Below, piece by piece: positions 863 to 16,342 of a stretch of 64,000 bases of DNA. The stretch covers positions 3,881,506 to 3,945,505 of the forward strand of contig NC_090611.1 in NCBI RefSeq assembly GCF_004359215.1, given 5' to 3'. Both the position numbers and the translations under genes were made by a program. The notes under the pieces are model-generated. The model was given only the letters and a program-made list of their open reading frames with translations, had not been told where the DNA came from and made no database searches. Within the stretch, counting starts at the first letter, position 1; each line of letters starts with the position of its first letter. This DNA is from Bremia lactucae (taxonomy: Eukaryota; Oomycota; Peronosporomycetes; Peronosporales; Peronosporaceae).

Positions 863-1419
863 ATGCCCTTGAATTCCAGGAATTTGGTAGATCGAGTGGA
901 CAAGAAAGGAGTTTAGACGGTATTTTGATAGCGTGATGTCGTAGTTCTAAATTATATAAAACTTCGAGAATCGTGTAATTGCATTAATAATTTTTCCATT
1001 TTTGTGTTAATGCGAGGTAAGATTTAAAATGTGCGCTCCTGATTTGGTATCGACAGATCGTCGAGGTGATTTGAATACTAAACCCCACTTCCTACACAAA
1101 AAACTCCGTAAAAGTCTTTGGAATTTCAATGAATCTTCTAGTCATTTTAGCAAGTTTAGGCAATCGCATAAACTTGCCAAAATGGCTAAACGATTCACTT
1201 CTGGCATCATAGCTTAAAGCACATGCAATCGGTTTCGAAGGAACGACATCTGATACGACATGTCAATAAATCAGTCGCGGCCGTTTTAAAGTTCATCGTC
1301 AATACGAAAGACCTCTTCGCCTCTTTTTAACCTCGCGATAAGGACTATTGCAAGAAAGACCTCGTCGATCCTTCCTTGTGCGGGAATCATTTTGTTACTC
1401 GCGACCGAGACCCCGAAAA
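863..1419. other. Intergenic region between tandem paralogues
   Basis: About 560 bases, AT-rich, with no supportable gene or RNA. It must hold the terminator of the upstream gene and the promoter of the next one; no clear core promoter motif could be assigned. Confidence 0.5.
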
Positions 1420-2463
1420 ATGAAAACTCTCGTGTCTGTCGTGCTAAGTCTTGTTCTTCTTCTCCTTGACGCGATTCAAGGTGCTTTTGAGGCTTCTTCC
1501 GCTACCTCGTCGTCCGAATGTTGCAACACGTGCATTGGCAAAACTTCATCCGTCCCGTATACTTACGACCCCGTCGTTTTTGCGGATTGCACCAAAGCAA
1601 CAGGAGGAGTCTGTTGCTTTGACTGTGGCACGCTCGGAGAAGTCCATTACGGCGACAGTGTCTCGTGTAAAGACGACGGTGTGACAGCAATTGTCAAAGC
1701 GGGATCGTACCTGTCGTTCACGTGGAGTAACGTCGAGAACGTTACGTACGTGATGCTTAAGACTGGACAAAAGAAGACAGTGACACCGACAAGTACCGAT
1801 ACAATGGCAAACAAGAAAGCCAACACGTTTGTAATTTGTGTTCCATCGGCTGGAAGTCTTTATTTTCGAGGATGGGGCAAAGACGCCTGTCGCGCAGCGT
1901 CTCCGGAACACGCAGTGATTATAGAAGCGAACGACGCTGGCAACAGTCAAACGTGCGATGCGAACGACATGGAGGAATTTATTGTACCATCAAGTGGCGT
2001 GAAAACCAAGGAAATTGATTCAAACTCGCTCGAGGCTGATAAAACCGTGGATCAATGCAGTCACGAGCGAGGGAGTGTGAAAGTTGTGGACAATGTGCGC
2101 ACGTGTGTGTGTGTATCCGACTGGACACACCCTCCAGAATGCAACCAATGGCCCTTGTGGAAGTGGCTCGTGACAATTGCCGGTGGCCTTGCGACCCTTT
2201 TTTCAATTGCCCTTTCGATTCGAGCATTTCTTCAAAATCGACATAAAAACAAACAAATAGACGATAATTACCATCTGCCTCCGAAGAAGCAAGAAGTGGG
2301 GTACCGAGAGAATTTGGCCCCAATGGGAACGAAAAGTGACGCTGAAGTATTGGATTTATCAAGTGCTAGCGGCTATCATGGTGCCCCAATGTCGTTGTCC
2401 AAGGACGAACAGCGGACACCTGGTGGCACCCGAAAACCGGTTGAGCGCTTATTTTCGCTTTAA
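1420..2463 (+). CDS. Secreted/anchored Cys-rich type I membrane protein (347 aa)
   Basis: The start chosen is the ATG at 1420 because it is followed at once by a strong signal peptide (MKTLVSVVLSLVLLLLDAIQG); upstream in-frame codons have no ATG. After the signal come CC..C and CCFDC clusters, a domain with alternating hydrophobic strands ending FRGWG, an acidic spacer, a CVCVSDW..PPEC EGF-like tail, a single transmembrane helix at about residues 245-268 (WPLWKWLVTIAGG...), and a basic then polar tail ending FSL. Cysteines, the CVCVSDW motif, the membrane helix and the C-terminal PRKPV..-F-(T/S)L pattern are shared with the gene at 2-862. No catalytic motif is visible. Likely a surface receptor-like or adhesion protein; function unknown. 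Confidence 0.85.
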   Translation: MKTLVSVVLSLVLLLLDAIQGAFEASSATSSSECCNTCIGKTSSVPYTYDPVVFADCTKATGGVCCFDCGTLGEVHYGDSVSCKDDGVTAIVKAGSYLSFTWSNVENVTYVMLKTGQKKTVTPTSTDTMANKKANTFVICVPSAGSLYFRGWGKDACRAASPEHAVIIEANDAGNSQTCDANDMEEFIVPSSGVKTKEIDSNSLEADKTVDQCSHERGSVKVVDNVRTCVCVSDWTHPPECNQWPLWKWLVTIAGGLATLFSIALSIRAFLQNRHKNKQIDDNYHLPPKKQEVGYRENLAPMGTKSDAEVLDLSSASGYHGAPMSLSKDEQRTPGGTRKPVERLFSL

Positions 2464-3329
2464 ATACGGGATATTAGAAAATGGATTGTAAATTACGGAA
2501 ATCTTGTAGTGCTTGGATGAAATGATTTTTTTCAATCGAGTTTTGAAAGTGAATTATTCCTCATCGAAATCAAATTATCGCTTATTGTATGTCGTTTCAT
2601 GATATCTCATTACCGCCGATAGATGCAGATGCAAGCCTCCGATGTTTAGTAGCAGAATTTGTACAGCTGTTTACCTTTAATTTTCCACGGTTGTTTGACT
2701 TCACACAACAAAAATAGTCAAGACGATGATTTGATGTCCTTGTAAAGGAATGTATATAAAGTTATAGAGGTAGAAGGTAACGGGGTGCGTCGTTGAAGAA
2801 ATTAACACTTACAGGTTGTTAATTGATTTATTATCTAAAAGGTAGAGAATATTTGGAGAATATTACTTTTAGTAATATTCGAAAAGCTTATCCAATAGTA
2901 GATATAGGCCATTATACCTACTTGCTCCGCGGTCCAGTCCGCACTGGACGCACGCAAAGAGAGAGACAGAAAGGACCTTATTGCATGATTTGAATTAATT
3001 TTTAATTAAGTTAGTATTGAATAGATAAAAGCAGAAAAACTTAACCATATTAAATACAGTTCACTTTTAACCCTCTTTACAAGCAAGTGTTTTAAAGAGA
3101 GTCTTTCTCTGCACGTGCTTTTGTACGTGAAGTGATGTGAAGGCACCACTCGCACTGACGCGGACATGAACTGAAGCAGTACAAGTAGGCAGTGTCCCGT
3201 TACATAGAAACAATGTATTCTTTGTACTCTCTAGGACAAATTCCTAAGTTGAAAAGGTGTGTATATTAATGTTATAGTGATGGACTAATCAATTACCTGG
3301 CTAAAATCTGATGTTGTGCGATACTATTC
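2464..3329. other. AT-rich intergenic region, nothing recognised
   Basis: No gene, RNA or element ends could be supported here. Confidence 0.5.
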
Positions 3330-4440
3330 TAGTGTGTATTGTTCTTTAGAAAGGAGAGATCACAAACGGATGTGGTATGGCAAAGCACGCCTACTCCTGG
3401 GACTCGCACGCTTCTCCGTCGTGATAATGGTGCATCGGCGACTCCAAGTTCTTCTTTCGATGAGTTTTGGGGACAAAGGTTGTGCTGTCACTCTCCGCGT
3501 CTGTCCGAGGCGTGGCATTTTCCATAAATCAGAAATTTTCAGTTATATATTTGCCATAGCCATTGTGACTGGGTTATTGCAGCCCAAAACAACCCGAGCC
3601 AGTAAAAAAAGCCCTGGTAACGGACCAGCCTGGTAACGGCTCTTCTCAATCCGGACTTCTACGATTAACGAAAGCGCCAAAATAGTGGTGGCTGTAGGTC
3701 CCGAGGCTGGGAAGAGATGCGCCGTTGGTTGAATAGCAGACACAGTATTGCAAACTGGCTTAAGAGAGAGTGGTTTAACTTCGAAGAGCCGAGGCCGAAG
3801 CGCAGACGATTACGTCAGAGCTTAAAGTCTTGGGCGATATAGAGGAGGAGGAGGAGAATGATCAAGCCGAGCTTTCTGAAGCCCGGGTGATGGGATTCGT
3901 GGGAGCGGCACCGCACGGGTGTACTTGGTCCAATCGGAGGACCGGTCGGCGGAGATGAATACCGTCGAAGAGCTGAAGAACTGTGCGAATTTGGTAAAGA
4001 CTTGCGACCGATACCTCGTATCGTACCGGGATCGCACAAACCGTTATGCCGAATTGATCGCCACGGGCCTGCCAAGCATTAAGCTGATGGTTGACAGCCC
4101 AAGAACAATTCCATTTTCACTCTGACAGGTCACACAGCAAATCACAGAGGAAGTTCTTAACTGATTAATATTGAAATCTTTTAGCATTCTAAATACAGTA
4201 AGAAATCAGGCCACTAAATGCTACTAATTTAGTTCTGCTGAATATAACTACTGCGTACTTGAGGTGCCGACACGTGTCATTCGTACCTAGCTGAGCCTAA
4301 ACGGAAGCCCATCTACATTCTTAAATGTGCTCTAACTCACTGACAATATGTTAGTTTTCACGCCTTGCAGATGGCCTTTGAGCTGATGAGAGGCTTGGAT
4401 GAGACGGCTGCGGCATTAGAGCAGCTAGCGCAAGAGTAAA
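3330..4440 (+). pseudogene. Unrecognised decayed plus-strand coding remnant
   Basis: Several short stretches look protein-like in different plus frames: one with SSSFDEFWG (about 3400-3520), an acidic DIEEEEENDQ stretch (about 3810-3890), a charged segment with CANLVKTCDRYLVSYRDRT (about 3965-4045) and MAFELMRGLDETAAALEQL after an AG acceptor-like site (about 4370-4435). They are separated by stops and frame changes. This fits an old multi-exon gene or element fragment. No family was recognised, and it could be chance in part. Confidence 0.3.
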
Positions 4441-4678
4441 TAAGGTGGATGCGATTTAGCGACAGCAGGTAGTTCGGGGAGGGGTGAATTTCGGACAGCT
4501 AGCTCAGTTTTTCCGGAATGATGTTTTCCGCACAGGGGTGGGCCGTGGATACAGAACGGAACGTTCATGCAAAACCGAAATAGGGACGTATGTTTCGAAC
4601 CCCTGCGCATAGCGCAGATGGTTTTGCAGAAGGAAGAGTCGCTTAAAGATGGTGCATGCGACAGATACCTTGTAAGAA
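4441..4678. other. Flank of the copia element, nothing recognised
   Basis: Short spacer between the decayed remnant and the first copia LTR. No gene is supported. Confidence 0.4.
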
Positions 4679-4923
4679 TGTTCTGTTCTAACAGGTGACG
4701 AAAGGTCAAGAGCGCCCGCACTTGATTGGCAAGTCATAGCGACAAGAAAAGATAGCAATTCGAGGAAGAGCGGTAAAATAAGCAGGAAAAAACGCGACAA
4801 GAGCAGGAAGTGCCCTCTAACGCATGCATGTTAGTTCGTCTTGGCCGGTTTTAGCTAAGTATGAATAAATTTCACTTTTACTCCTACCTGCTTCTGCGGA
4901 AGTGCATTGCTTACCTTCTAACA
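4679..4923 (+). repeat. Copia LTR, left copy
   Basis: Starts TGTTCTG and ends TTCTAACA, giving TG..CA termini. It matches 8800-8995 along its length, including the shared CACTTGATTGGCAAGTCAT block, apart from about 45 bases lost from the other copy. Confidence 0.75.
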
Positions 4924-4943
4924 ATTTATGAGCCCAAAAAATT

Positions 4944-5140
4944 ATGACAGTGGTGCAACTAAGTCGGCTTCGCCTGCTGAGGTGGGCGGTGGTCATTAAG
5001 GGACGTGAATATTATGTTAAAGGAAAGTCGGAGGTGCCGTGGGCAGCACTGGATAATTTGATGACTATTCTCGGACACTTGTCTGAGTGAATGGGGAGGA
5101 TGAAATCCTCTCTATCCGGACAAGTGGGACGGCCTCTGAA
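4944..5140 (+). pseudogene. Copia gag N-terminus remnant
   Basis: Directly after the LTR an ATG opens a frame beginning MTVVQLS that continues about 50 codons to a stop in LGHLSE*MGRMKSS. The same peptide is readable after the second LTR (9013 on), where its ATG is changed to ACG. The frame ends at the deletion that joins gag to integrase. Confidence 0.55.
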
Positions 5141-5583
5141 ATAAAACTTACGGACTCAAAGCGAGAAATCGTTTTAGCCTGCGCTACGGGAAAACAAAAA
5201 ATAATGTGCAATCACACCGGGAAATTCGTTAATTGATGTCATTGGTGGAGTAATTTTTTCCGACCTCAAATGTCCAATAATCCCTCGCTATCATCGCATT
5301 AGTCATTGTTTGATGACTTCGACCACAAATCCAACTATGGCCGTGTTTTTCTGAGGACATTGCTGTCCTGAAATTTAGGCATTCCTTGGCTGCTTCGAGT
5401 GACAATTTAATTTTCAAATTCACGTTTCACGATTGATGGAGGTGGGGAATACAAAGCTCTGGAGGCTTTCGTGTAAGACAGCTGGTATTTTGCGTCAGAT
5501 GAGCGAGGCAATTAACCAGGCGAGCAACGAAAAAGGCTAAGCGGATGCACCGCACTATCATGAACATGGTGTGACGCATGGTT
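5141..5583 (+). pseudogene. Copia integrase, N-terminal and core part (broken)
   Basis: Translated pieces show the second half of the HHCC zinc motif (LACA), a DHKSNY..VF segment of the catalytic core, TDGGGEY and a degenerate NGKAERMHRTIMN equivalent. Many stops interrupt it. The frame is cut at about 5568-5583 by the foreign module and resumes at 6636. Confidence 0.7.
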
Positions 5584-6635
5584 GGAAAAATAAAATGTAG
5601 CATAAAATCGGATGACCAATGAAATATTCGCGGTCGACAGATCACGACCAATGAGACAGCCGTTGACAATAATCAATCGTCGCGTACGAGCCAAGACGAA
5701 GTATCACAATATATTTCCAGTCCAAGACAACATGCGAACGCATAGCGAGGACGGACAGGAGTCAGCGGGCGTGCGTATGGCGAATAATTCGAAGTCGTAC
5801 ACGTCGGTGGTATGGCCGCCTTCAGTAGACGTCACACCGATGGATGCGTTAAGGCTTCCCTTTCCAGAGGGAATACGGGCAGGCTTTAAATGCGCACTCC
5901 TGCATCATGTGGCGCTGGGAAATATATTGTCTGCGATCCATAAGAGAAGAAAAAAATGGGCTGCAAAAATTGGCGGGATGGAGCCACGCTCCGTGTTCAT
6001 AAAATGGGTCATAAGGGGAAAGACCGGATTGGCCTGCGGTGGAAATCTCGGAAGTGAGCCACATGAAGGTGGTGAAGCGAAATGAATATTATTCCTGGGA
6101 CGAGGAAATGGCTGATCCAGAACGTTGCGGTGGGTCAGCAGGTCGTGACCTAACGACGTCGAGAATTAAAAAAATGAAGAACCCCTTGAAGATAGAGGTT
6201 GATATCAAGGGAACGCGAGACGACAATTGCGGCTGTGATGGTCGTGGCGTGATCAACGATTGCCTGAATGCCGTCGAAACCAGGTATGTGAAGGAACAAC
6301 CTGTTCAGTGGGAGCGAAGGGGCGTCAAAAGAGGTTCCGTTCCTGTCATCTGCAGCTGCCCGTGACAAGCCGGGGGATAGGCGTAGTTGCTGCCCGACCA
6401 ATTACGCAAGGAACGGTGGAGCGCCAAAACTGGGGAAAGTTTGCGCATACGATACTCCCACCAGCGTCGCACACGATCCGACTGCGCGAGAAGGATACCG
6501 GTGGGCACCCTTCGTTCGTGAGCGCGGAGGAAGAAAAAAAATCTCGATTTATTTTACACTCCTGCACTCCCAACACGGAATATGTTTAAGTGCGTGGACT
6601 GTGTAGAGTCAAGGTATCCACGATCGCTTAGATAT
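5584..6635 (+). pseudogene. SET-domain (AWS-SET methyltransferase-like) module nested in copia integrase, copy 1
   Basis: This segment has no counterpart in copia elements. Its frames encode, in order, a 150-residue N-terminal region, an AWS-like Cys stretch (NCGCDGRGVINDCLNA, then CSVGAK..RFRSC), the N-terminal SET motif RGIGVVAARPITQG (about 6371-6412) and the SET core motif SRFILHSCTPN (about 6542-6574). AWS-SET proteins (SETD2/NSD/ASH1 group) are histone lysine methyltransferases. The last SET part (GEE..YDY) is missing. One frameshift separates the two halves of AWS. The module is flanked by a 16-bp near-duplicate (5568-5583 and 6636-6651, GGTGCGAAGCATGGTG in the right copy), which looks like a target duplication. 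Copy 2 carries the same module. Confidence 0.75.
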
Positions 6636-7100
6636 GGTGCGAAGCATGGTGTTTACTAGCGATGTACCATTAAGTTCTTGGGGAGATGCAGCCGAGTATG
6701 CTGCATACATAATCAACTGGAGTCCTACAAAGGCAAACATAGGGCATATATTCCTAATCCAAATGCTCGCGAAAAGGACACCTGTCTTAAGTGACGAAGT
6801 GGCATTTGGTACACTATGTACAGTATACAAGGAAGCTAAATAAAAGGCGCTGGGCGAACGTCGAACGGCGGCTTTCGTCGTCGGAAATGTGACGAGCCGA
6901 TGAAGGTACAAGGTTTATATCCAAACGTCGAATCGTGGTGATCACCCAGCTTGTCCAGAATGTTAAACGTTTGACGAGAAGCCAAAAGTGAACTTACAAG
7001 GACCTTAAAGTATGCTGTTGAACGGGGGAGTATAGCGATGCGCCGCCCAACAGAAATAGAGAACGGTTGTCTGGATGGACATGTGATAGACATTTGACCC
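6636..7100 (+). pseudogene. Copia integrase C-terminal part (broken)
   Basis: An open stretch at 6634-6843 reads MVRSMVFTSDVPLSSWGDA, then AYIINWSPTKAN and a degenerate FGTLCTVYKEA; this is the typical copia integrase C-terminal region. After the TAA at 6841 the frame goes on as GERRTAAFVVGN. The same sequence recurs at 12454-12905. Confidence 0.75.
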
Positions 7101-7224
7101 GGTCGATGTGCAAAAATTAGACTAAGGTTGTACCATCTGAAGAACTTCATGGAGTCGTCAATATGGCATGTGAAGCCGATCCAAGAATTTTGGTGAGGTG
7201 ATGAAAAGTAAAAAAAGACTGTAC

Positions 7225-8040
7225 GGGTTACAGCAATGTCTGAAAAGTTAAATTTTTTGAAAGCGAACGGTGTGTGGGAGGTGGTGATACCACCTAATTC
7301 ATCGCATGTTTTGCACAACAAGAGGGTGTTAAAGACAAAGACAGACGTAAATGATAAGTCGGAAGATTCAAAACTCTACTCGTTGCATGTGGAAATGATA
7401 AATCATTCGGCATCGACTACACTTTGACATTTGCTGCAGTCATGAAAAAAAGTACATCCAAAGTGGTACTGGTTTTTTCACGTCGATTGAACGTGCCGGG
7501 TCGCCATGGAGATGTACCAAACTAAATGCATACGTAAAGGCGGCCAAAGAAACACATCTGGACATTTTCATGAAGATTTTAAATGGAATAAATTTTGACA
7601 AGACAAGTTAGAAGAACACGGTGTCAAAAGTTCAACTCACCTAGCATTTCTAGTGAAGAAATTATTGTGTGGTTTTAAGCAAGCTGGCAGACTTTCGAGC
7701 AAGTTACTGTAGTCGAAAATGTGCGATGCTAGATTTGTGCAGTGCACGACAGACATGTGCCTGTATTTCAAGATAGGCAAGGACGAGCTCACAGTAGTCG
7801 GGAGTTTACATGGATGCTACGCTGGTTACAGGTACATCAAAGATTGCAATGGACAATTTTTTTGAAAAGATGAAATGATTGAAGATAAAAGGTTTGAAAA
7901 TTGCAGATAATTTTTGGGTCTTCATATTTCGCTGGATAAGAATTTGAGCTATGTGTTAGACCAAGAAGTATATATTGAGTTACTGCTAAAAGAACACGAA
8001 TTAAAGATAGTGAACGGAGCGCGAGCTTGAATTGTTGAAG
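7225..8040 (+). pseudogene. Copia reverse transcriptase remnant
   Basis: The reading starts EKLNFLKANGVWEVVIPP, then VLHNKRVLKTKTD, then DYTLTFAAVM and VVLVFSRRLNVPGRHGDVPN, which are the conserved copia RT entry motifs. Further on, KQAGRLSSKLL and CTTDMCLYFKIGKDELTVVGS (the block before the YVDD site) and FLGLHISLD are readable. The YVDD residues themselves are lost and frames change several times, so it is dead. Confidence 0.8.
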
Positions 8041-8269
8041 ACACTAAAAAATCACTAATTAAGAGCCAGATTACCTCCCTGTAACGGAAGCAAATGGATA
8101 TGCGAGCGAGAGGATATATTATTCTCTGGTAGTTTTTCTTATTTGCGCGTTGTACAAGACCGGACATGTGCTTTGCGGTGCATCGAGCAAATCAGCAAAC
8201 TCACAAGCCGACTATGAACGATTGGAAAAAGGCCAAATGAATTTCGAGATTTTTGAAAGATACTTAAGT

Positions 8270-8799
8270 TGAAGTTCCAGATAGGCGGTACCGGCAAATC
8301 ATCAGATGATATCAAGATCGAGACCTGGAGCGATGCCAATTTGCAGCTGACGAACCGGATCGCAATTATGTGTCGGGTTATGGTGTGAAGATGGCCACGG
8401 TGTTGTACTATTATGTCGTACGTTAGAACAGCCTGGTGATCGATGAAAGCCAAATTTATTGCGACATCGCAGGCTGGTCGTGAGTTTTTGGGATTAAAGA
8501 AACAATTCCAAGAGCTGGGCCTGTGGATTACTAAGCCTACGCAAATAAAGATGGACAACAAGCGGCAATAAAGCAATTGGAGAGCGAACAAAGCACGGCA
8601 AGTACCAAGCATGTGTATATTCGCTTCAGAATTATCTGCCACTACGCTAGCGCCAAGATTGTAGAACTATGTTTTGTGTGTAAAGCCTGGCATGATTACA
8701 GATTTGCTACCGAAGACCCTCCCTGCGCCAAGAATTGTCGAACTGCGCGATTAGTTAAACTTGAAGGCTATAAGGTACGGGTGAGGAGGAATGCCAAAA
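8270..8799 (+). pseudogene. Copia RNase H remnant
   Basis: Frames encode the RNase H region: WSDANLQLTNRI..YVSGYGVKM, AGWS*VFGIKE, AAIKQLESEQSTASTKHVYIR and a final KLEGYKV, all typical of the copia C-terminus. Stops and at least three frame changes are present. The 3' LTR begins directly after. Confidence 0.8.
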
Positions 8800-8995
8800 T
8801 GTTCTGCTTTTAGCAGGTGAGGAAAGGCCAAGAGCGCACGCACTTGATTGGCAAGTCATAAATGTAGCAATAAGAAAAGCTAGCAATTCAAGGAAGAGCA
8901 GTAATATGAGCAGGAAAAAGCGACAAGAACAGGAGGTGCCCTCTTACACATGCATGTGAATATATTTCACGTCTACTTCTACCTACCTTCTCACA
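8800..8995 (+). repeat. Copia LTR, central copy shared by both tandem units
   Basis: Begins TGTTCTGC and ends TTCTCACA. Compared with 4679-4923 it lacks about 45 bases near its middle. It is the 3' LTR of copy 1 and the 5' LTR of copy 2. Confidence 0.75.
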
Positions 8996-9012
8996 AATTG
9001 AGAGCCCAAAAA

Positions 9013-9330
9013 ATTACGACGGTGGTGCAACTAAGTCGGTGGCATCTGCTGAGGTGAGCGACGGTCGTAAAGGGACGTCGAATAACATGTTGAAGAATAG
9101 TTGAAGGTGCCGTGAACAGCACTGGATAATGTGTTGGCTATTCTCGGGGACTTGTCTGAGCGGATGGGAAGGTTGAAATCCTCTGTATCCGCACTAGTGG
9201 GACGCCATGAAACGTCTCTGCGGAGTCAAGTATTTTTTTCTCAAACGATCTTGGGAGTTGCAGCAGAAATGAACCTCCAGGCATTGGAGCGTACTATTTC
9301 TCCGAAAAGTTTGCCAAACATCTAACCAAC
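9013..9330 (+). pseudogene. Copia gag remnant, copy 2
   Basis: It parallels 4944-5140: VVQLSR..LL, LGDLSERMGRLKSSVSALVGRHET, then an open tail to 9325. The original ATG is changed to ACG. No zinc knuckle could be seen downstream. Confidence 0.5.
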
Positions 9331-10690
9331 TACTTAATTTAGTGCCCAGCGACCGGCTTATGCAAAAGGTTTAGAGCTTCGTCAGAATGTCAATTGTGAC
9401 ATGGGACAGACACCTGGGCCGTAAATGTATGGACAGAACGTTAACGGTAACTTCTCCTCGAAAGAGTATACCACACCCTGTCATTGCGCCTCCTGGTCGT
9501 CAACTTGATGGGGTGCCGGACGAAAGAAAATGAATGTTGGCCTTGCAGCCATTTAATGGAACATAACTATACCATGAACTTAAACGTGATTTCTAGAATG
9601 GGGCAAGAAATTCGTTCGCCAAGTGGTTTTTCTGAGCGCATGTGGTTTTGTTGGCCGAGGATATTAAGGTTGATGTTCTTGGACAATACCTTGCGGATAC
9701 GGCACAAAAAAATAAACCGTAGACAGGTCGAATCTTGGTGGTCGGTAAGTCAAAATCTGGTGTATGATTTGAAACTGTTACTTCAAACTTATTCCACCCG
9801 CTCAATGTAAGAGATTATTTGCGGCGGGTAAAGCGCCTCATCGGAGTTGGACTGGTCATTTCTTTTACTGACAGCTGTAAGTGACACTTATGGAGGTGCG
9901 CACCATTCGTTTTGAATAACGTCTTTCATTATGCGGACCCATCGATGCGTATAATAATGGAATCCAGCCCGAATACCCATAGATAGGATTTTCTTCGTCA
10001 AGTGGAAGAATAATGCCAATTTGAACAGTCTACGAAATTGAGCCGCGCACCAAGAATTTCGGTTGCGACGTGGGAAACGTTGTCGAGTCAGCAAATAATT
10101 TAAGAACAACACTGATTAATAGGGGCTTAGAAAATGATACCGCAGTGGTCAAACGGTTCCCTCAAAGTCGCATGCTCTCGAGAAAAGCGAATGGAACAGA
10201 AAAAAAGACTCTACCTTTGCAGTCGGAGATCGCTGTGCGATCACCAAAAACCAATAATTTCTTGATAGTGGCTCAAATTACCATCTTGTGAGCGACTTAA
10301 GTTTAATGCAAGACCCCGCACCGCCGATTTCTTTGGAGATTGTCTGAAGGCGGCATCAGATGGTGAACCATTTCGAATTACAAGGAATATGCAGCGTGGT
10401 GATAAAGGCCAAAGGTTTGGGCACAGAAAACGGTTCGACTTCTCGATGTTCAATACGCGGCAGACCTAAGTGAACATGATTTTTATGGAAAGCTTAAACA
10501 CAAAAGTTGTTACTTGAATATCGCAAAGGAAGGCGTACAAGAAGAATTCCTATCATGGACGTTGATTGCGGGAATAATGCACTGTTCGTCTAGATTCACA
10601 AAGACATTTTACGCAAACCCCATCAGCTTTGATAGAATCATGACTGTCCTGACAAAAAAGGATCATGAGATAGATTCGGATGTTCAGTGT
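9331..10690 (+). other. Copia interior, gag/protease part too decayed to read
   Basis: By position this should be the rest of gag and the protease. No motif (zinc knuckle, DTG/DSG) could be read with confidence, and no other gene is supported. Confidence 0.4.
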
Positions 10691-11232
10691 GGCACGTAAA
10701 TGAAAAAACACTATCGCCGTTATGTTGCAACCTCAATTGTCAGAATGGCCCGAAACACTGTCTCTAAAGTTAAACTTACGGACACAAAGCGAGAAAACTG
10801 TTTGGCCTGCGCTAAGGAAAACAAAAGAAATGTTTAATCAAGTAAGAACACCGGTAAAAATTCGTTAATTGATGCCATAGGTGAAGTAATTTTTCACGAC
10901 CTAAAATGTCTGATAACCCCTGGCTATCAACTTGATAGTCGTAATTTGATAACTTCGACCACAAAATCCAACTTTTGCCGTGATTTCCTGGCAAACAACG
11001 AAGGAAATAGCTGTCCTGAAATATAAACATTTTTTTGGCTGCTTCGAGTGACACTTTAATTTTTAAATTCACGTTTTACGACTGATGCAGGTGGAGACAT
11101 ACAAAAATCTGGACGTTTTCTTGTGAGACAGCTGGCAGTTCGCGTCCAGTGAGCGGGGCAATTAATAAGGCGAGCAACGAAAAGCCTGAGCGGATGCACT
11201 GCAGCATCATGAACAGGGTGCGAAGCATGGTG
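10690..11232 (+). pseudogene. Copia pre-integrase and integrase core, copy 2 (broken)
   Basis: Frames read KVKLTDTKRENCLACAKEN (zinc motif CxxC), then NSLIDAIGEVIFHDLKC, RNLITSTTKSNFCRDFLA and, after further frame changes, the degenerate ASNEKPERMHCSIMNRVRSMV. The catalytic region carries multiple stops. It is cut by the SET module exactly after VRSMV, the same point as in copy 1. Confidence 0.75.
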
Positions 11233-12453
11233 AAAAAAAATGTAGCCTCAAATCGGAAGACCGATGAAATATTCGCGGTTGACAGATCACGACCAATGAG
11301 ACATGCGCAGACGAAAACTATTCATTCGGTTACGAGCCAAGACGAAGTCTCACAATATATTTCCAGGCTTAGACAACATGCGAACGTATAGCGAAGATGG
11401 ACAGGAGTCAGTGGGCGTGCTTATGGCGATGAATTCGAAGACGTACACGTCAGTGGCATGGCCGCCTTCAGTAGACGTCACACTGATGGATGCGTGAAGA
11501 CTTCCCTTCCCAGAGGGAATACGGGCAGGCTTTAAATGCGCACTCCTGCATCATGCGGCGCTGGAAAATGTATTGTCTGCGATCCATAAGATAAGAAAGT
11601 GTGTTCCAAATATTGACGGATTGAGCCACGTGTTGTGTTCGTTAAACGGGGTAGAAGACTGGTTTGGCCTGCGGCGGAAGTCTCAAAAGAAGGGCCACAT
11701 GAAGGTGGTGAAGCAAAGTGGGTGCTCAATCACCGGGGCGCCAGAGCAATCTGGATACACATAAACGATAACGACGGCAGCTTCGACGCGGACGAGAGGG
11801 GCGACGGCATCGACGAAACTGATTATGATGTCCGAGATGGAGATGGTAAAGAGGTGTTCGGCGAGATTATCGACCATACTATGTGCGTCAGTGACGAGAA
11901 AGAGGCTAATCCTGGGACGAGGCAATGGCCGATGTAGAAAACGTTGCAGTGTGTACGCAGGTCGTGACCTAACGACGTCGAGAATTAAAAAAAGAAGAAC
12001 CCCTTGAAGATAGAGGTTGATATCAAGGGAACGCGAGAAGACAAGTGCGGCTGTGTTGGTCGTTGGGTGATCCCCGATTGCTCGAACGCCATCAAAACCA
12101 GGTATGTGAAGAGAAAATCTGCTCAGTGGGAGCGAAGGGGTGCCAAAACAGGTTCCGTTCTTGTTGCCTGAAGCAGTGCATGACAAGCCGCGAAGTAGCC
12201 CAAATTCCTGCCCGATTAATCACGCTAGGAGCGGTGGAGCGCCAAAAACTGGGGAAAGTTTGCGCATACGATACTCCCACCAGCGTCGCACACGATCCGA
12301 CTGCGCGAGAAGGATACCGGTGGGCACCATTCATTCGTGAGCGCGGATGTAGAAAAAAAATCTCGATTTATTTCACACTCCTGCACTCCCAACACGGAAT
12401 ATGTTAAGTGCGTGGACTGTGTAGAGTCAAGGTATCCGTGATCTCTCAGATAT
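11233..12453 (+). pseudogene. SET-domain module nested in copia integrase, copy 2 (longer version)
   Basis: Same module as 5584-6635 but with an extra acidic stretch (NDNDGSFDADERGDGID..., about 11763-11900) that copy 1 has lost. AWS-like cysteines are readable (DKCGC, then CEEKICSVGA..NRFRSC in another frame) and the SET core motif SRFISHSCTPN is at 12361-12393, followed by NTEYVKC. The flanks GGTGCGAAGCATGGTG (11217-11232) and a one-mismatch copy (12454-12469) look like a target duplication. Several stops and frame changes show it is inactive. Confidence 0.75.
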
Positions 12454-12905
12454 GGTGCGGAGCATGGTGTTTGCTAGCGGTGAACCATTAAGTTCTTGGG
12501 GAGATGCAGCTGAGTATGCTGCATGCATAACCAACTGGAGTCCTACAAAGGCAAACATAGAGCATATGTTTCTTATCCAAATGCTCGCAAAAAAACACCT
12601 GTCTGAAGTGACGAAGTGGTATTTGGTACTCTATGTACAGTATAGAAGGAAGCTAAATAAAAGACGCTGGGTGAACGTCGAATGGCGGCTTTCGTTGTCG
12701 GAAATGTGACGAGCCGAAAGGATACAAGATTTATATTTCAAACGATCGAATCGTGGTGATCACCCAGCATGTCCAGAATGTTAAACGTTTGACAAGAAGC
12801 CAATAGTGAACTTACAATGATCTTAAAGTATGCTGTTGAACGGGGGAGCATAGCGATATGCTGCACAACAGAAAAGAGTAAGGTCGTCTAAATGAGCACG
12901 TGATC
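12454..12905 (+). pseudogene. Copia integrase C-terminal part, copy 2
   Basis: Reads MVRSMVFASGEPLSSWGDA, NWSPTKANIEH and degenerate downstream pieces matching 6636-7080. It ends where copia similarity is lost. Confidence 0.7.
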
Positions 12906-13344
12906 GACATTCGCTAGCATTATTAACAGTACTAGACAACATACACTTGTCACAGTGAAGGTGGGGCGCCTCGATTGCTTCACGTACACTGACGAGTAGA
13001 GGAAGATTACAGATAGTTAAGAAACCTTAGCTACCAAAGATTATTTCTAAGGCTTTAGAATGGAGAAAAAAGTAAACCTGTAATAATGTATTAAGTATAT
13101 AAGTAACGATCTTCATTCTACTACTGACTTAAGTCTATATATAACAAATCATATATGGTGCCTACTTGCGCGCCGCACATTCGTGTCTTATAACGATTGG
13201 CGGGATTGATTTAAACTTAAATCACAAATCAATAAAACCAATGTCTTATGCGCCAATATTATTAAATATTTTAATATCGGAATTATTTAGCCAAACTTAT
13301 TAAAGATTATAATGATGAATTTTTTTATTTCTTCTCATACAAAA
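12906..13344. other. AT-rich spacer, nothing recognised
   Basis: Very AT-rich sequence between the truncated copia copy and the Mutator-like element. It is the target into which the latter inserted. Confidence 0.5.
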
Positions 13345-13353
13345 TAATATTTA
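13345..13353 (+). repeat. MULE target-site duplication, left
   Basis: TAATATTTA, identical to 16306-16314. Confidence 0.85.
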
Positions 13354-13478
13354 GGCCGCCGTTCGGGACACAGACGTTTTTGATCCGGACACAGACGTTT
13401 TCGTTCCGTACACAGAAATTACTAGTTGGCTAGATCTAAGCTTTTTATTGGCTAACTCTAGGACATTTGATTGGTCAG
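13354..13478 (+). repeat. MULE terminal inverted repeat, left
   Basis: Begins GGCCGCC. It is about 20 bases longer than the right repeat because an ACAGACGTTTT-like segment is repeated within it. Confidence 0.85.
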
Positions 13479-14439
13479 CGTTTGAATTGGAATACAAGCC
13501 CAGCGCTAAAAATCGCCATATCTTCACAATTAACAACCGAGCAACCTTTGCATTTGACAACGACAGAAGATAGTGTATGTGAATGCAAAATACTTCAATT
13601 TTGATACGGAAAGGATGAAATACTTTCAATTTTGATTGAGAAAGAATGAATACCATATGAATGAATCAATGGCGTAGCTCTATTCTGATTCGAATACTGT
13701 CGATGTCTGTGTCGAGTCCGTCGCTTCTACTGCCGGTGAAACCGCTGGTATATTGCACCCCATTTTTTTTTCTTGTTCGGCCGGCAGCCCTGAAAAGAAT
13801 ACAAAGTCGTGAGTCGTGACGGTAGGCCAGCTGCCCGCAAGCGCGACAAACAGGTGGCCTGCGTATTTTTGAAGGGGCTCAGCGTATTCGAATGCCGAAG
13901 TATCGCGACGAGTGGAAATATTTTAAGGCACGGAAGTCGAGGAAAGTGGCCGTTCTCCTGTTCCTACCGGCTCCGGTTCTTGTATGACTACTAGAGTCTT
14001 TTGAGAGAGCTTCTCCAGTTCTGCTGCTGCCGGACAGGAAGGTGCCTAAAAGTTGTAGCAACTATTTCCATTACAGCTGGCAAAACTTCCTCGGGATTTG
14101 CGATCGCCTGAGGACGAGGAAAGTAAGGTCTGTATAGGTAGGTGCAACTGCTCTGCAACGTCCGAAAGTTGAAGTTGTCGGTCAATCCGTGGCTGATGCC
14201 GTAGTCGGTGTTGGCAAGGAACAATCCAACTGCTGCAAATACATTTTGGCATTGATTTGGCGCATTACTGGGATCAAAAGGTCGCTGCGCAAGTTCAAGC
14301 CGTAAGAAAGGTTGAATTTTAGTTGGCAACATTGAAATTTCGATAATTTTATCAAGTAAAGAACCTCACCTGACAATGCACATTCGTGAGCGCAGAGTAC
14401 GACACCAATCGATTCACATTTTAAAGATTATACCTGACG

Positions 14440-15830
14440 GCGTTAGCATGGCGAGGGCAAGATTTTTCTTTGCTGATTTGCCAACTCCGACCGGTATTCG
14501 AGCATGGAACTTTCCATGGATCGTTGTATCGTCTCACAGCATCCGAGTAAGTTTTTCATACTGGTTGGGAGAAAGCGTTTTAATCGACTGTGTGCACCTT
14601 CTCCACGAGAGGTCGCAATGTGTCCGAAATGGCGGATCTGTCTCGTCCATGCCTTAACACAATTTTCTTTGTGGGGATCAATCCATACGATCTGGAGATA
14701 TTGAATTGCCGTCCCACTTCCATTATTGATTTGTTTTGAAATGTACTCCTTAATTAATTGAAGTACGTTTCGGTTTCAGCATACATGCCCTAAAAGAAGG
14801 GGAAATTTAAATTAGGTATAGGTCTTAGACGATTGAGTGGATGAGTGCCAATGGACTTACTGAATGCCATTCCTTATGGAGCTCATTCCATTCATCTTCT
14901 TGTACCAAAGGTTTGTATTTTGCTAGGACATTCTTTGCAAAATGCCAAGCGCAGAAGAGGACTGCGGGTTTGAGAAGCTGGATTTCAATGCGGTGAATAG
15001 AGCAAGCTCGCATCACCTACGAAAGCCACTGGAAGAGATCTCTCCCGCTCAAGAGGCCCTTGAAAAAAAAAATTGCCGTGATATAGAACGGCTCATCCTC
15101 GAACCTCATAAAACAAAGCTGGCTTAGAACGACGTAAACAGATTAGTATATCTAAACAGATAAAACAGAGGAAATCGGCATCTGCTCGTCTTGTAAGTCG
15201 CATCCATATTAAAAACTTCGTAAAGTTGTCGCAACATTTGGATGGATTCCGGATGAGCGACGAACATCTGGGTCACATGCCCATTGTTATCCAATATTAC
15301 GTCGATTTCATTTTTTTTCCTCCGAAGGTCTCCATCCGTTGGCGTACGTCCATTCAACTTATCATTTTTTTTGCTTTCCGGCAAACATTGTAAAGTTTTT
15401 GCTTGGTCACGTCAATATTATCTTCTTTGGACCTTAGGTCTCGATCTCTCGGACTCGCACTCCAGATTCGATCAAGTCCTTCACTGCCGTCTCTTGGTCT
15501 TCGGTCAGACGCATGCAAACAGCGTGACCAGTTGGATGTGATGATGCCTCATGGTTGTGCTCCCCGTGCTCGACTAAAAAACTCCATTGGCCATCTACAA
15601 GATAAAATATGGGTAAATGCATGAAGAGATAATCGAATTTCAACTGATCAACAAGGTAAATTACTTTGGCATGATGTTCCGTGCCGACCATTATGAAAGG
15701 ATAGCCAGTACAAGAGCTCGCGGAGCTTCTTTTCCAACTTCCCTCCTCTAAATTGTGATTGTTTCGGTACATTCCTACGCGATCGCATTTACAATGCACT
15801 TTCTGCTTTCCGTTACGTTGCCTGTAAGAA
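14440..15830 (-). pseudogene. MULE transposase (broken)
   Basis: From the N-terminus (15799 downward): a Cys/His-rich FAR1-like region with SSASSCTGYPF, a WSFLVEHGEHNHEASSHPTGH motif and LTEDQETAVKDLIESGV; then PTDGDLRRK and FNMDATYKTSR (about 15190-15215), where the Asp is the first catalytic residue expected of MULE transposases; then VLFCAWHFAKNVLAKYK (about 14915-14965); then, in another frame near 14560-14620, a SRGEGAHSRLK motif that carries the expected catalytic Glu. Stops and frameshifts separate these pieces, so the element cannot make its own transposase. Confidence 0.8.
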
Positions 15831-16202
15831 TGTTTTGTAAAAATTTAGTATATTTCCTCAGCAAAAACGCATTGAAGGCTTTTGCACGTCATCCTTTGAG
15901 GAGTACATTATTCCAGCAAGAGAAACAGGAGGTTGGAGAAACATATTTCTTAAGTTAAATAAGGAGGTATACAGGGGGCGAGATAAATGTTGAAATGGTT
16001 GTAGATCCGGATTTGTAAATAAAATATCGAAAGTAGTAAATTTGATCTAATATATAGGTGATAAATTTATGTATAAAAAAGGAAACACCCCGTTTTAGGG
16101 AGGGAAAACGGATAAATAAGGTAGAGCATACGAAGGGGCTTAAACTAACATTGGGGGCTAAATATTTGGGGGGGAGTTGAATCGGGAAGGACGCTTTACT
16201 GT

Positions 16203-16305
16203 AGCCAATCAAATGTCCTAGAACTAGCCAATCGAATAGCTTAGAATTAGCCAGTTAATCGTGTCTGTGTCCGGATCAAAAACGTCAGTGTTCCGAAAAG
16301 CGGCC
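16203..16305 (-). repeat. MULE terminal inverted repeat, right
   Basis: Reverse complement begins GGCCGCTTTTCGGAACACTG and matches the left repeat through the CTAGGACATTTGATTGG block. Confidence 0.85.
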
Positions 16306-16314
16306 TAATATTTA
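16306..16314 (+). repeat. MULE target-site duplication, right
   Basis: TAATATTTA, identical to 13345-13353. Confidence 0.85.
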
Positions 16315-16342
16315 TTATTCCTCTAATAGGAAATAATATTTA

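Follow-up and report, generated by a model that had tools for sequence, protein, structure and literature searches.

A truncated SET insert in a copia-like element of Bremia lactucae and its probable source in an 18S rDNA-targeted LINE-type retrotransposon

The copia-like recipient and its insert

The window, a stretch of 64,000 nucleotides of the Bremia lactucae genome (C2:3881506-3945505; 115.9 Mb in 220 contigs), holds two tandem copies of an element that we take, from its motifs, to be copia-like, its interrupted frame presumably being a copia integrase. No retroelement Pfam match was obtained among 10 short fragments of this element, and a whole-genome RVT_2 search placed no window match among the best 150 of 2508 candidates. 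The integrase is interrupted by a SET insert, as listed below.

4686..8783, + strand: copia-like element, copy 1, degenerate, with direct repeats in common with copy 2 (approximate bounds)
5568..5583, + strand: left target duplication of copy 1, from near-duplicate comparison
5584..6635, + strand: insert in copy 1, read as the end of a SET-bearing R-element that is truncated on its 5' side; its SET frame is broken
6239..6589, + strand: open frame with a partial SET domain (PF00856 E = 0.0026, under the cut-off)
6636..6651, + strand: right target duplication of copy 1, from near-duplicate comparison
8808..12874, + strand: copia-like element, copy 2, in tandem, with direct repeats in common with copy 1 (approximate bounds)
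11217..11232, + strand: left target duplication of copy 2, GGTGCGAAGCATGGTG, single at the empty sites on C18 and C110
11233..12453, + strand: insert in copy 2, counterpart of that in copy 1, opened by an A-run at 11233-11240
12454..12469, + strand: right target duplication of copy 2, GGTGCGGAGCATGGTG, from near-duplicate comparison

The near-duplicates reported by the first-pass annotation at 5568 and 6636 were found exactly at 5568-5583 and 6636-6651, where they are identical at 13/16 positions. Those of copy 2 are identical at 15/16, compared to a best of 14/16 and a mean of 9.8 when the copy 2 flanks were shuffled 300 times. Genome searches with the two copia flanks returned 7 and 16 matches, and the sole other loci matched by both flanks, on C18 and C110, are contiguous and carry one 16-bp copy each. 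Since the 16-mer is single at these contiguous sites and the insert is present in both window copies, both the insertion and the duplication of its target are real, and 5584-6635 is an inserted segment as had been proposed. The insertion predates the doubling of the copia-like element, because the same insert occupies the tandem copies and empty sites exist elsewhere; the earlier suggestion of a SET-carrying mobile unit that duplicated its target and was multiplied with its host is thereby borne out.

Similarity to other SET loci is confined to the insert (~5593-6618 and ~11235-12449). In both copies the insert is frame-broken and stops short of the C-terminal part of SET; it also lacks the terminal ~58 nt seen at C118a, C3 and C15, with an A-run at its start instead. 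One end lies at TGGTG, the SET 3' part and the reverse transcriptase (RT) are lost, and the truncated far end accompanies a 16-bp duplication, the combination of target duplication and 5' truncation that marks R-element insertions. The first-pass annotation had inferred a copia element with a working chromatin-modifying domain. This was rejected because the SET piece is truncated and frame-broken, interrupts the integrase and, among the loci matched by both flanks, was seen with these flanks only in this tandem pair. The copia-like element is a recipient only.

Downstream, the window contains a DNA-transposon-like unit (13343-16316) with 54-nt inverted ends that are 87% complementary and with broken antisense frames, one of four frames giving weak matches, under the cut-off, to ZSWIM RNaseH-like (0.00047) and MULE (0.098) profiles.

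The SET gene and its relatives

Among six window ORFs tested, only 6239-6589 matched the Pfam SET profile PF00856 (E = 0.0026), its score of 18.6 bits falling below the curated cut-off of 22.4. Searched against the genome, the insert gave 18 matches on six contigs, so that the SET unit sought away from copia was indeed found at several other loci, three of which have a ~58-nt terminus in common. The best relative, L009 on contig C118, encodes a full SET domain (PF00856 E = 7.5e-13) in a frame of 444 codons counted from stop to stop, and L047, also on C118, provides a second intact frame of 514 codons (E = 4.6e-12); the SET domain is thus present in both, the window copy alone falling under the cut-off. 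Of the AWS-SET module originally described, the SET part stands with this qualification and the Pfam AWS part does not, as no AWS match at E<=1 was obtained in window ORFs or in the intact relative. The Cys-rich stretch read as AWS does align with ASH1L in its pre-SET part.

A profile of seven relatives searched against PDB matched EHMT2 (8.9e-16), ASH1L (~1e-11) and NSD proteins, histone methyltransferases with which the SET fold is common by profile. The product is methyltransferase-like by sequence; it differs from EHMT2, which has N in the NHxC cofactor motif, in that S or A replaces N in 7/7 relatives holding the segment. Because of this replacement, a binding or inactive role for the SET product is possible. 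Word-based protein searches, the second of them over 7986 candidates, returned at least five proteins of downy mildews, drawn from four species, and at least two short ENA fragments, and these relatives point to the downy mildews. SET relatives occur in Hyaloperonospora brassicae, Peronospora destructor, P. matthiolae and P. effusa. Over 391 codons, L009 and L047 differ with a pS of 0.76 and a pN of 0.29. As synonymous divergence is saturated (76%) and nonsynonymous divergence modest (29%), the SET protein has been under selection; judged by this codon comparison, both frames derive from genes under long selection.

18S junctions and the linked reverse transcriptase

At two of the relatives the SET unit directly follows 18S rRNA sequence. 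In L009, 18S ends with GGAGGGCAAGTCTGGTG and the unit begins with AAAAAAAG; in L047, 18S ends with GGGCAAGTCTGGT and the unit begins with TTAACAAAG, and the 18S beside it is identical over 571 nt to that of L020 and L024. The insertion point is fixed: L009 and L047 join 18S after GGGCAAGTCTGGT, and so do L054 and L058, SET-less R-elements that end at the same 18S nucleotide. On C3 (L011), 18S also ends at this nucleotide, and a 155-bp unit stands between it and SET. On C15 the SET unit stands after AAGGTCTGTG within another repeat, and the C5 copy, having the same flank, was not counted separately. The terminal segment of ~58 nt is common to C118a, C3 and C15 beside different flanks. The junction reads TGGTG at C118a, C3 and copia copy 2, TGGT at C118b, TGTG at C15 and TGGTT at the more decayed copia copy 1. 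The copia 16-mer agrees with the 18S target at 10/16 positions, a score equalled or bettered by 0.15% of window 16-mers. A group I intron was also considered as a possible alternative occupant of this 18S site, and Rfam listed no intron family in the loci searched. A candidate pattern, GTCTGGTGAAAAA, was discarded after giving 4 matches versus 3 for its reversed control, with neither SET nor 18S seen within ~500 nt read around 3/4 of its matches.

These junctions bear on two other accounts of the data. Many gaps surround the loci (scaffold gaps cut C118a, C118b and C8), as would be expected if the 18S-SET joins were chimeras that arose when repetitive rDNA was assembled. Nevertheless, 18S is joined at one nucleotide by two different SET genes and by the SET-less elements, and the order of 18S, 155-bp unit and SET recurs on another contig (C3), so that we regard chimerism as very unlikely. 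The insert, for its part, is a gene fragment oriented as the copia-like element, which could have acquired a piece of SET mRNA through template switching or as filler during repair. This account, already weakened by the empty sites and by the 16-bp target duplication, leaves aside both the left end at TGGTG, as in the 18S copies, and the SET units with a shared terminus at other sites, and we consider it very unlikely. Because of the gaps, no complete target duplication was seen at 18S.

A LINE-type element lies antisense at the 18S site in L022 (C159) and L023 (C8); on its 5' side, repeats of an 18S stretch enclose a small unit. The RVT_1 match of L022 (E = 2.5e-26) identifies a non-LTR reverse transcriptase, accompanied by a weak Exo_endo_phos match under the cut-off (E = 0.0077). 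The small unit beside L022, L023 and L011 (L022 4502-4729; L023 3610-4432, several in tandem), which has 18S target flanks, appeared tRNA-like by eye; the likeness is by eye only, as ARAGORN found 0 genes in five loci.

The SET gene is linked to this RT family. At C1, C3 and C15, the SET gene and the RT gene, the latter with its 3' end, meet tail to tail, the RT family lying on the strand opposite SET at C1 and C3; at C3 this arrangement requires one internal inversion. The SET-linked copies at C1 and C3 were matched by tblastn to the L022 RT but are broken. Homology between C1 and C3 runs unbroken from the SET 3' side into RT (1590 bp, 80%). L055, the 3' end of a SET-less sister with an open RT frame, matches the C1, C3 and C15 copies at 82-85% identity as far as a single boundary, at which the SET part of these copies sets in, and reaches 18S after a gap of 214 N. 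At C118b, SET is followed by ~376-bp tandem repeats and, beyond these, by ORF1 and part of the endonuclease of this family, and no RT was found there. On L050 and L047 (C118), these repeats separate the intact SET gene from the endonuclease remnant. A satellite-like tandem array occupies C15:495000-523900 (L012-L014), each partial unit with SET and an RT 3' end.

Such neighbours could also arise if the SET unit were a separate, non-autonomous element that uses the machinery of the 18S R-element, RT and SET having come together by successive insertions at one site. At least seven RT loci of >=55% identity were found among 92 matches (the best 91 of 462 candidates scored), and SET is known at 1/7 of those listed, on C1. 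Two other C1 loci have no nearby SET among the matches listed, one on C118 read as all N, and no SET match 3' of RT was present in the stretches read at L051 (C159), L054 (C118) and L055 (C8). That most RT relatives listed are without a nearby SET favours separate elements, as do the C118a and C15 termini without a readable full RT gene. Against this, no 18S target with <=5/18 mismatches separates SET from RT at C1 (L010), the junction is the same at C1 and C3, and the same RT 3' piece lies beside the C15 SET units. Counting against a single SET-bearing R-element, by contrast, the 3' termini of elements with and without SET have no clear relatedness, and no copy with ORF1, endonuclease, RT and SET all intact was seen among the loci read. 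On balance we judge separate elements unlikely.

A candidate 18S R-element with an antisense SET gene

The best reading of the insert's source, one that lay beyond the view of the first-pass annotation, is an 18S rDNA-targeted LINE-type retrotransposon. We assign a probability of about three in four to an 18S-targeted R-element whose 3' end bears a SET gene in antisense, with the copia insert as a truncated off-target copy. SET would lie at the 3' end of the element on the strand opposite its own ORFs, so that the element RNA would hold antisense SET, and an R-element inserted antisense in 18S would place SET in rRNA sense just after GGGCAAGTCTGGT. On the 18S-sense strand, the endonuclease of the element would nick behind TGG(T)G, and reverse transcription would be primed at the nick on the 3' end of the element RNA, setting SET beside the 5' part of 18S and leaving the far side truncated. 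The window insert would then be a 5'-truncated product at a look-alike site, GCATGGTG, in the copia-like integrase, bounded by the 16-bp duplication and later multiplied with the copia-like element. Internal initiation, described for a related element when the poly(A) tail is short (PMC7265360), would be consistent with its start ~58 nt inside the terminus.

It has long been asked how R-elements persist in rRNA genes that the cell must run, and by what means the units they occupy are silenced. This question would become testable with a LINE that has its own conserved SET gene in rRNA sense. Gene, target and constraint coincide in the proposed SET-bearing R-element. SET could plausibly determine the chromatin state of rDNA units that hold an insertion; such a LINE would predict either a chromatin mark at these units or interference there. 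More tentatively, and at rather less than even odds, the 18S LINE lineage may carry exchangeable antisense 3' cargo (SET in one branch, an unrelated 462-codon ORF in a sister, L054, and none seen in another, L058) that is read in rRNA sense out of the 18S gene, with SET setting the chromatin of inserted rDNA for mutual tolerance of element and host.

Elements with parts of this arrangement are known. R7Ag of Anopheles (R1 clade) and R8 of hydra (R2 clade) are 18S-specific R-elements, non-LTR retrotransposons in 18S rRNA genes as here; the likeness concerns the 18S target, and the descriptions consulted mention no SET cargo, in contrast to the element proposed here. SET genes have been described in oomycete DNA transposons, namely HarbingerS, MuDR and proto-Helentron-Pi of Phytophthora (PMC12730594, PMC4067079). 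These are likewise oomycete mobile elements with a SET gene, differing in being DNA transposons for which the descriptions consulted give no tie to rDNA, whereas a LINE in 18S is proposed here. Utopia elements are oomycete LINEs of low copy number that insert at specific sites in structural RNA genes and have gained domains; they differ in their target (the U2 snRNA gene), their restriction-like endonuclease and the domain gained, RNase H in Utopia and SET here. The one open-access library searched yielded no description of a LINE that bears a SET gene. Both SET in oomycete DNA transposons and LINEs in 18S are therefore known, and no report of their combination was found in that library. If the reading is correct, SET capture in oomycetes would extend from DNA transposons to a retrotransposon.

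Two further frames were observed on C118. In the 3' region of the SET-less 18S R-element of L054 (C118:126600-130100), the minus strand of positions 1235-2620 holds the 462-codon antisense frame; its chromodomain-like or protease-like appearance by eye was set aside, as it gave no significant Pfam, PDB or protein-database match. In L021, a second LINE-type open frame on the minus strand (1419-6107) adjoins 28S rRNA sequence, which suggests another R-element at a 28S site.
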